DNA of 64,000 nt from Salipiger profundus (lineage in GTDB: Bacteria; Pseudomonadota; Alphaproteobacteria; Rhodobacterales; Rhodobacteraceae), in contig NZ_CP014796.1 of NCBI RefSeq assembly GCF_001969385.1, positions 2,807,501 to 2,871,500 of the forward strand, given 5' to 3'. The translations under genes and the position numbers were made by a program. Shown here piece by piece: positions 32,923-43,114 of this stretch. The notes below the pieces were generated by a model, which worked only from the letters and a program-made list of their open reading frames with translations, was not told where the DNA came from and did not search any database. How positions within the stretch are numbered: position 1 is the first letter of the stretch; every line of letters starts with the position of its first letter.

Positions 32923-32951
32923 TTGACGCAGGAGCAGGAGCGGCGTATTCG
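32923..32951 (+). promoter_or_regulatory. candidate promoter of the riboswitch-metZ transcript
   Basis: TTGACG (32923-32928) and TATTCG (32946-32951) are 17 bases apart. The expected transcription start, about six bases on, falls on the first base of the riboswitch stem, which supports the call. The -10 match is only partial. Confidence 0.55.
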
Positions 32952-32955
32952 CCTT

Positions 32956-33012
32956 TCGTGGCGCTTTGTTACCGGATTGCGGGCCACGTTAAACATGCCG
33001 CTAAAGAGGTCG
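32956..33012 (+). ncRNA. SAM-II riboswitch
   Basis: The P1 stem is CGTGGC (32957-32962) with GCCACG (32983-32988). The loop has the conserved ACCGGATTGC stretch. Downstream of P1, GTTAAACATGCCGCTAAAG and then AGGT (33007-33010) provide the second pseudoknot partner: ACC in the loop with GGT. This order and these conserved bases match the SAM-II class found before methionine genes in alphaproteobacteria. The gene it precedes, metZ, is a standard SAM-II target. High SAM should lower metZ expression. Confidence 0.88.
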
Positions 33013-33014
33013 AA

Positions 33015-33053
33015 CGAAAGCCCCTTTCGCTTGACCGCGGCTGGGGCTTTTTT
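33015..33053 (+). terminator. attenuator-type terminator between SAM-II and metZ
   Basis: AAAGCCCC (33017-33024) pairs with GGGGCTTT (33043-33050), followed by T6. The left arm is also part of another hairpin, CGAAAG (33015-33020) with CTTTCG (33024-33029), which cannot coexist with it. The metZ start and its own ribosome site (GGAGGG) lie downstream at 33075-33089, outside the riboswitch. Control by early termination is therefore likely. Confidence 0.75.
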
Positions 33054-40930: not shown

Positions 40931-40980
40931 GGACAAAAGAAAAACGGCGGCGCCCAGGGAGGAGGAGAGGGCACCGCCGT
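40931..40980 (-). terminator. terminal hairpin and U-run of the DUF1127-CcsR-like transcript
   Basis: The last hairpin of the array, ACGGCGGCGCC (40944-40954) with GGCACCGCCGT (40970-40980), one mismatch, is followed on the minus strand by TTTTTCTTTTGTCC. This polarity shows the array is transcribed leftwards, from the DUF1127 gene. Confidence 0.8.
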
Positions 40981-41442
40981 CGATATTCCGAAGACCCAAG
41001 GGAGGAGGAGATGGGCTTCAGAAACTGTCGGCCTCGCGGCCGTTGTAGGGGTGCGACGGTCTCAGGGAGGAGGAGAGAGACCGCCGCGCTATCGAAACGC
41101 CCCAGGGAGGAGAAGAGGGGGCTCCGAAGGTCTCGGGCGTTGCGCCCGGTTGTAGGGTTGCGACGGTGCCAGGGAGGAGGAGAGGCACCGTCGCGCTATC
41201 GAAACGCCCCAGGGAGGAGGAGAGGGGGCTCCGAAGGTCTTGGGCGTTGCGCCCGGTTGTGGGGTTGCGACGGTGCCAGGGAGGAGGAGAGGCACCGCCG
41301 CTCTATCGAAACGCCCCAGGGAGGAGGAGAGGGGGCTTCGAAGGTCAGGGCATTGCGCCCCTTGTCTTGTTGGCGGCGACCTCAGGGAGGAGGAGAGAGG
41401 CCGCCGCCGGAACTCTGGGGCTCAGGGAGGAGGAGAGAGCCC
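40944..41442 (-). ncRNA. array of five CcsR/cuckoo-like sRNA units (ten anti-Shine-Dalgarno hairpins)
   Basis: Ten hairpins, each with the minus-strand loop UCUCCUCCUCCCU (one variant), lie in five pairs at a period of 105-109 bp. Pair members start at plus-strand positions 40944/40990, 41053/41099, 41160/41206, 41267/41313 and 41372/41418. The stems differ in sequence but stay paired. For example, CGACGGTGCC/GGCACCGTCG at 41161-41193 is perfect while other copies carry single changes. Most units also have a small GGGCGTTGCGCCC hairpin between pairs. In R. sphaeroides the stress-induced CcsR1-4 RNAs, with CCUCCUCCC loops, are processed from the transcript of a DUF1127 gene; the same layout here, with one extra unit, supports the call. 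Confidence 0.85.
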
Positions 41443-41461
41443 GTCGAGTTGAAATCGTGTG

Positions 41462-41680
41462 TCAGGCCTCGTAGGCGGCCTGCCATGCGATCCGGCGGAT
41501 CATCGAGCGGCTCAGCCCGAGGTCGCTCAGTTCGCGGTTGCTGAGACCGGACAGTTCGCTCACCGTTTCCTTGAAGAGGCGGCGGCGGGCATTGCGCTCG
41601 CGAAGCGATGCGACGATGCCGGAGAAGAAGCCGGCGTTGCCTGCCTGGACGTTTGCGGTGTGGTCGGTTGCGTAAGCCAT
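41462..41680 (-). CDS. ccaF1: DUF1127 protein, CcaF1-like
   Basis: A 72-residue basic protein with the DUF1127 core RNARRRLFKETVSELSGLSNRELSDLGLSRSMIRR (in parts), the Arg-rich helix and the S-x-R-E-L-x-D-L-G-(L/I) end. In R. sphaeroides CcaF1 is a small RNA-binding DUF1127 protein encoded upstream of the CcsR sRNAs, under RpoH-type control. Here the gene ends 20 bp before the first CCUCCUCCC hairpin on the same strand. No clear RpoH promoter was found upstream, and the ribosome site is weak. Confidence 0.88.
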   Translation of the reverse strand: MAYATDHTANVQAGNAGFFSGIVASLRERNARRRLFKETVSELSGLSNRELSDLGLSRSMIRRIAWQAAYEA

Positions 41681-41918
41681 CTGGATTGCTAGCCTGTTCG
41701 GTATGTCGTTCCGTTGTTGACCTCAATCTGGGGTAAATGCTGCAAGTGCACAATCCCGTCTGACCTCAAAGCCGCTATGCGGAAGGTGCATGGTTCTGCT
41801 GGGCCATAGACAAGCGAAACCAAGGCGTTAAGCACAAAGATTGGGCAGTATGTGTTCGAGCATTGCGCGGAGTGCAAGGTGACCCTACGTCGGGTTGCGC
41901 AAATGGAAAGGAAAAGGA

Positions 41919-43062: not shown

Positions 43063-43114
43063 CTTTTGGCAGGCAGCCCAGTGCACGCCTTTTGGCAGGC
43101 AGCCCAGTGCACGC
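43063..43114. repeat. 26-bp tandem direct repeat, two copies
   Basis: CTTTTGGCAGGCAGCCCAGT plus GCACGC occurs at 43063-43088 and again, identical, at 43089-43114. It starts two bases after the apbC terminator and is followed by GCTAGCGCT and an AT-rich run (ACATTATATATAG, 43131-43142). It is too small to be a mobile element. It may be a slippage duplication or a protein-binding site. Confidence 0.85.

Follow-up and report, generated by a model that had tools for sequence, protein, structure and literature searches.

We conclude with high confidence that the ten hairpins lying behind a DUF1127 gene of Salipiger profundus form a five-unit ccaF1-CcsR operon (CIN1, cuckoo), which would make anti-Shine-Dalgarno stress sRNAs. 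The array is very probably a further instance, of ordinary length, of an already known sRNA system, to which it adds one genome; five units are normal there. The less expected element lies ahead of the operon, in putative promoter blocks that are deeply conserved according to alignments. This conserved promoter makes the control of these RNAs cheaply testable. In the following, the window is the whole 64-kb stretch of DNA that was analysed, and positions given without a contig refer to it.

Anatomy of the array

The single minimum-energy fold of the minus strand from 41470 to 40926 (-251.8 kcal/mol) contains all ten motif hairpins, with 13-nt anti-Shine-Dalgarno loops, arranged as five pairs between 40943 and 41442 (Table 1). 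From 41793 to 40939 on that strand, the layout is promoter region, DUF1127 gene, ten hairpins and U-run, and the first stem begins about 20 nt past the stop of the gene. The first-pass annotation had described the five pairs, the short distance to the gene and the U-run, and the fold, the motif count and the sequence agree with it on each. It had also given the loops as identical, which is true for nine of the ten: they read UCUCCUCCUCCCU, while the seventh has one changed base (UCUUCUCCUCCCU, with its 12-mer at 41104-41115). The same holds for CCUCCUCCC in the loops of the paired hairpins, nine being exact and the remaining one having one change. The fold further predicts four small GC hairpins that lack the motif, one ahead of each of units 2 to 5; like the promoter blocks upstream of the DUF1127 gene, they were missing from the earlier annotation. 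Its period of about 107 bp is reproduced by Tandem Repeats Finder (period 107, 4.3 copies, score 555), and the spacing is 105-107 between successive first loops and 106-108 between successive second loops.

Is this pattern a functionless product of chance, or a low-complexity pyrimidine repeat? The motif is indeed simple, a repeated CUCCUCC, and it stands in a GC-rich region. However, the 12-mer CTCCTCCTCCCT with at most one mismatch occurs ten times in the 64-kb window, every time inside the array, while 100 dinucleotide shuffles gave 0.41 on average and never more than 2. Since no shuffle came near ten matches, the array pattern is not chance. The covarying stems argue against a chance repeat as well. 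Over the ten aligned hairpins, 87.8% of the stem cells are paired, compared with 66.4% after shuffling, where none of 500 shuffles reached the observed value; with slid partners the share is 57.5% or less. Seven of nine stem pairs show changes on both sides, so the stems do differ and keep pairing as had been noticed at first. With the operon position conserved in all 20 genus genomes, a meaningless repeat retains hardly any probability.

The tenth motif hairpin is terminator-like and would double as the intrinsic terminator. It is followed by the U-run GCCGCCGUUUUU, which reaches 40939, and a Rho-independent terminator with a 13-bp stem and UUUUU is predicted from the sequence after the last unit (40939-40981).

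Table 1. Features of the operon and related units (window positions unless a contig is named)
Feature	Position	Strand	Basis
Upstream promoter block CCATGCACCTTCCGCATAGCGGCTTTG	41767-41793	-	anchored alignment, 75 promoters selected for nearer block
15-mer CGCATAGCGGCTTTG, weak local copy of VtlR/LsrB-like motif	41767-41781	-	4 mismatches to published motif
Conserved block ATTGTGCACTTGCAGCA with -35-like TTGTGC	41738-41754	-	2 exact genome copies, both ahead of DUF1127 genes
-10-like CAGATT, 17 bp past TTGTGC	41725-41730	-	measured spacing; putative function
DUF1127 small protein, 72 aa, CcaF1-like	41462-41680	-	Pfam PF06568, E 7.1e-12, above cut-off
Unit 1, CcsR1 match	41368-41455	-	42.3 bits, E 1e-8
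Unit 1 hairpin 1	41418-41442	-	fold
Unit 1 hairpin 2	41372-41408	-	fold
Small GC hairpin before unit 2, without motif	41347-41361	-	fold
Unit 2, CcsR1 match	41262-41345	-	45.8 bits
Unit 2 hairpin 1	41303-41343	-	fold
Unit 2 hairpin 2	41267-41301	-	fold
Small GC hairpin before unit 3	41242-41254	-	fold
Unit 3, CcsR1 match	41155-41238	-	46.7 bits, E 5.2e-10
Unit 3 hairpin 1	41199-41234	-	fold
Unit 3 hairpin 2	41160-41194	-	fold
Small GC hairpin before unit 4	41134-41148	-	fold
Unit 4, CcsR1 match	41048-41131	-	39.9 bits, E 5.4e-8
Unit 4 hairpin 1, variant loop UCUUCUCCUCCCU	41092-41127	-	fold
Unit 4 hairpin 2	41053-41087	-	fold
Small GC hairpin before unit 5	41029-41042	-	fold
Unit 5, CcsR1 match	40939-41025	-	41.6 bits
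Unit 5 hairpin 1	40986-41023	-	fold
Unit 5 hairpin 2 (40943-40981) with U-run, predicted terminator	40939-40981	-	sequence, fold
Single two-hairpin CcsR-type unit	C1:3319527-3319611		CcsR1 search
Single two-hairpin CcsR-type unit	C2:115342-115426		CcsR1 search
Single two-hairpin CcsR-type unit	C2:146290-146372		CcsR1 search

Elsewhere in the window there are a perfect two-copy tandem repeat of 26 bp (43063-43114) and a SAM_alpha riboswitch on the plus strand (32948-33025), whose 61.8 bits exceed the Rfam cut-off.

Family assignment and related units in the genome

The first-pass annotation took the array for the system of R. sphaeroides CcsR1-4 with five units in place of four. Both points stand: the DUF1127 gene, the tandem two-hairpin CCUCCUCCC units and the terminator are all present, and the fold has five pairs. 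It had also proposed a CcsR covariance search, whose outcome is mixed. In E-value mode, the CcsR1 model (RF02791) matches five of five units on the minus strand, with E from 5.2e-10 to 5.4e-8, at 39.9-46.7 bits, all below the curated cut-off of 65.3; Rfam at gathering cut-offs gives no match inside the array. An identity with ar14 / NfeR1 was considered and rejected, as the RF02344 matches (50.4, 47.9 and 37.5) are below the cut-off of 58.8 and the array has five pairs and is linked to DUF1127.

The eight best CcsR1 matches in the whole genome are the five array units and three single two-hairpin units, and the ninth, weaker, is on contig C8. In this search 150 of 5082 first-look candidates were scored and 24 matched at E up to 10; matches below the ninth are uninformative, because 12 of 14 control genomes also match at E up to 10. 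By eye, a small GC hairpin precedes each of the three single units, and each has a promoter-like stretch of another type. The weaker cuckoo-like unit (C8:4384-4568, L292, on a 111-kb contig) has an exact TGCATAGCTGCATTG box and a TTGTTGCGGCGCAGCAT stretch directly upstream.

The single units bear on another question, whether the hairpins act in cis only, stabilising the DUF1127 mRNA from its 3' UTR and terminating it. The array does stand directly behind the DUF1127 gene and ends in a terminator-like hairpin. However, a mere stabiliser does not need near-invariant loops, the single two-hairpin units of the same genome are all more than 7 kb from any of its five DUF1127 genes, and in one relative (L229) motif loops follow right behind the same promoter block without DUF1127. 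A role in cis only is therefore very improbable.

Array size and spread among relatives

Is the array expanded, as it was first called? A pattern scan of named genomes gave at least 118 loci and 119 arrays besides that of the window; among the matches listed, these 119 have 3-17 exact motif copies, some being plain repeats in unrelated phyla. From the resulting 120 arrays among the matches listed, 51 without DUF1127 within 130 nt and 8 with short upstream sequence were dropped. The remaining loci are 54 outside Rhizobiales (window included) and 7 of Rhizobiales, grouped by the taxon names of the records, so that unclassified bins and a record labelled Maritalea mobilis count among the 54. Among the matches listed, these 54 DUF1127-linked arrays have 4-15 exact motif copies, arrays cut by a locus end being undercounted, and 15 of them, that of the window included, have ten or more. 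Arrays were present in 20 of 20 genus genomes searched, own genome included. In every one of them the promoter block has 7-14 motif copies within 1300 nt, and a DUF1127 domain lies between block and array. Since ten or more loops occur in 15 of 54 comparable arrays, the array cannot be called expanded; the comparison of unit counts that was proposed together with that claim puts ten loops within the ordinary range. The longest array among the matches listed is that of Wenxinia marina (L132, 392 onward), where a DUF1127 gene is followed by 17 motif copies.

The units themselves point to some turnover. The inner units of the window are 88-93% alike. In the genus set, the mean similarity of inner units is 0.863 within a genome and 0.803 between genomes, and for 24 of 54 inner units the closest relative is another unit of their own genome. 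This likeness is consistent with units still being duplicated and lost, though it carries no information on dose; some inner units look like recent duplicates. As was also suggested at first, loops are conserved while stems diverge. Across 94 units from the genus, the second hairpin hardly changes at loop positions 2-12, stems are variable, and the loop of the first hairpin varies more; note that these hairpins were picked by the motif (at most two mismatches) and a stem of at least 5, hence loop conservation carries an ascertainment bias.

One might think that such an array is mainly a sponge or decoy, in which the ten loops sequester an RNA-binding protein, leaders of mRNAs or ribosome-like contacts and the number of units sets the dose. 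Many near-identical loops on a single transcript, the variable number of units between relatives and the likeness of inner units just described would fit this. On the other side, the RNAs of relatives are reported to be processed to two-hairpin sRNAs and to act on mRNAs by pairing, and no protein partner with a preference for the motif was found in the accessible parts of the literature. Neither the titration of RNA-binding proteins proposed at first nor the suggested tuning by copy number finds support here; the mode documented in the accessible accounts of relatives is pairing with mRNA Shine-Dalgarno regions, and we regard a sponge as quite unlikely.

Conserved promoter blocks ahead of the operon

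In the alignment of 19 genus loci, two blocks upstream of the DUF1127 gene stand out over their surroundings. The nearer block is ATTGTGCA-N3-GCAGCA. It has two exact copies in the own genome and its reversed control none; at one mismatch there are 4 extra matches and 3 for the control, so that only exact matches were used there. The second exact copy (C2:138714-138730; L196 1501-1517) is about 120 nt ahead of another DUF1127 gene (L196 1637-1855), and no motif loops were found within 1300 nt of it. The 20 genus genomes contain 26 exact copies, and the reversed control does not occur in them. Of the 26 copies, 20 belong to arrays, 3 to further DUF1127 genes, 1 to loops without DUF1127 (L229) and 2 to neither. 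In the family, 131 of 198 genomes have the exact block and 3 have the reversed control; among the matches listed, 30 family block loci comprise 22 with DUF1127 and loops, 2 with loops only and 6 with neither. With up to three mismatches, the block is found in 54 of 54 non-Rhizobiales promoters among the matches listed (40 exact; reversed control 0 of 54) and in none of the 7 Rhizobiales loci among them.

Downstream of the -35-like TTGTGC, a [CT]A[TA]NTT follows at 16-18 bp in 40 of 54 loci among the matches listed, compared with 0 of 54 at the control distance of 40-43 bp. The window is outside these 40. RpoHI/RpoHII promoters of R. sphaeroides are reported to have TTG at -35 and TAT at -12, with a gel shift for another DUF1127 gene (PMC10673084); TTGTGC-N17-CAGATT of the window has the TTG and lacks the TAT. 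Bases between TTG and TAT are conserved beyond this sigma rule, which points to a bound regulator. We found no description of these promoter blocks for CIN1 loci in the literature, which was available mostly as titles and abstract openings; this is weak evidence that they are new.

Candidate regulators

Then which regulator might bind? The farther block consists of a dyad followed by RGCRGCATTG. The LysR regulator VtlR has the reported motif CAATGCAGCCATGCA. In Brucella it activates DUF1127 genes as well as AbcR2; in Agrobacterium it does so for abcR1 and for a related small-protein gene (PMC12595884, PMC7486931). Its homologue LsrB is reported to activate NfeR1, an sRNA of the cuckoo type, through a site at -72 to -57 (PMC10746234). 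On the operon strand the VtlR motif is TGCATGGCTGCATTG, and it is found with up to three mismatches in 51 of 54 non-Rhizobiales promoters among the matches listed (13 with one mismatch). Each of 100 shuffled motifs was found in at most 1 of 54 promoters, a control that takes no account of common descent; these are not 51 independent events, because related promoters inherit one resemblance. The window copy is among the three weakest of the 54, and the strict published form GCAT-N3-TG-N3-T occurs in 7 of 75 promoters.

As a tentative reading, somewhat short of probable, we propose by analogy that a two-part promoter is common to the Rhodobacterales operons of the DUF1127-cuckoo type and to some cuckoo units that lack DUF1127. 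It would be made of a VtlR/LsrB-like dyad at a putative position of about -65 and of ATTGTGCA-N3-GCAGCA in the -35/-10 region, and an RpoH-type sigma factor together with a LysR regulator of the LsrB/VtlR type would switch it on. If true, one regulator would tie DUF1127 proteins and anti-Shine-Dalgarno RNAs across two orders, and LsrB/VtlR control of DUF1127 genes in Rhizobiales would be joined with RpoH control of CcsR RNAs in Rhodobacter.

An alternative is that the upstream blocks are bound by PhaR, which would link the operon to polyhydroxybutyrate storage. PhaR sites of S. meliloti, for example before mmgR, are reported to be similar, TTGTGCA-N2-GCAGCA (PMC12542648). However, in the PhaR palindromes of three of four phasin-like genes here (one above and two just below the Pfam cut-off, the fourth too poorly placed for a verdict) TGC and GCA are three bases apart. 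The gap is four in 19 of 19 genus promoters, in an alignment that left the spacing free. A site with three or four bases is reported from P. denitrificans, which leaves PhaR some probability. Because the phasin-like promoters here use a different spacing, PhaR is the weaker candidate and unlikely, and an LsrB/VtlR-type regulator is still preferred.

A class-wide scan and the search for an orthologue speak against the LsrB/VtlR reading. The sequence TGCATRGCNGCATTG has one exact copy in the own genome, directly ahead of the C8 cuckoo unit. The scan covered 289 genomes, four of them from the own family, and found it in 44; it was rejected as a class-wide marker, with a DUF1127 gene or motif loops downstream in 3 of 31 places (two of 30 loci); one place (L276) is inside a frame reading GCMAALEAE, presumably thioredoxin reductase. 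An LsrB orthologue was not found in the own genome by the trxB-neighbour route, and the frame after trxB we judged by reading not to be a LysR gene. A LysR-type gene is divergent from another DUF1127 gene (L209, C1 near 90306), and its nearest solved structure by sequence is LrhA; none of 46 PDB sequences among the matches listed is named LsrB.

Proposed mode of action

By analogy with relatives, a stress promoter just downstream of 41725 would give one minus-strand transcript with the DUF1127 gene and five CcsR-type units, which would end at the tenth hairpin as terminator. This precursor would be cut by RNase E into sRNAs of about 85-107 nt, with the DUF1127 protein influencing the step as in R. 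sphaeroides. The two CCUCCUCCC loops of each sRNA may then pair with a set of mRNAs at their purine-rich Shine-Dalgarno regions, so that these mRNAs would be translated less under stress. We infer transcription, RpoH-type control, processing and targets of the array from relatives, for which the accessible accounts report stress transcription, RNase E processing involving the DUF1127 protein, and two-hairpin sRNA products. For CcsR, pairing of this kind is reported with its target FlhR mRNA, and excess CcaF1 is reported to interfere with CcsR maturation (PMC8307010). Because of this interference, the role of CcaF1 is not simply that of a helper. There is dispute over whether contacts with RNA or with proteins underlie the action of DUF1127 proteins (PMC12501420). 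NfeR1, with three hairpins, is reported to downregulate ntrB, and pairing via its motifs was predicted and reporter-tested (PMC10746234).

For possible targets, the own genome was scanned for GGGAGGAGG 2-12 nt before ATG, which gave 18 rows, compared with 2 for the reversed pattern. These are 16 distinct sites, as one row is the plus strand of the array itself and one site was counted twice. Two of the 16 have frames of just 6 and 41 aa, and the other genes look to us like aldehyde dehydrogenase, quinolinate synthase, a PEP synthase-like enzyme, transporters and others. The matches are unspecific and inseparable from ordinary strong ribosome-binding sites, and they were rejected as evidence for targets. 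The genome has GGATCACCTCCTTTCT at four places, which we take to be the 16S end; if so, the loop shares CCUCCU with it.

Comparison with known systems

The VtlR/LsrB regulon (DUF1127 genes, AbcR, NfeR1) has a similar 15-bp motif ahead of DUF1127 genes and cuckoo RNAs. It belongs to Rhizobiales, whereas the loci here are mostly of Rhodobacterales and their regulator is putative. With ar14 / NfeR1 / SmelA075 (Rfam RF02344), the array has the loop motif and hairpin style in common; NfeR1 is reported to have three hairpins and its own sigma70 promoter (PMC10746234), while the array has five pairs behind a DUF1127 gene. The cuckoo RNA family (Reinkensmeier and Giegerich 2015), known here via citing papers, shares conserved anti-Shine-Dalgarno loops, free stems and the DUF1127 link, and the array does not differ from it in any of the features compared. 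The closest counterpart is ccaF1-CcsR1-4 of R. sphaeroides (RSP_6037; CIN1 locus; Rfam RF02791, CcsR1). Both have a DUF1127 gene (about 71 aa in R. sphaeroides), same-strand tandem two-hairpin CCUCCUCCC units and a 3' terminator. The R. sphaeroides locus has four units, whereas that of S. profundus, known here from sequence alone, has five, which score under the Rfam cut-off.
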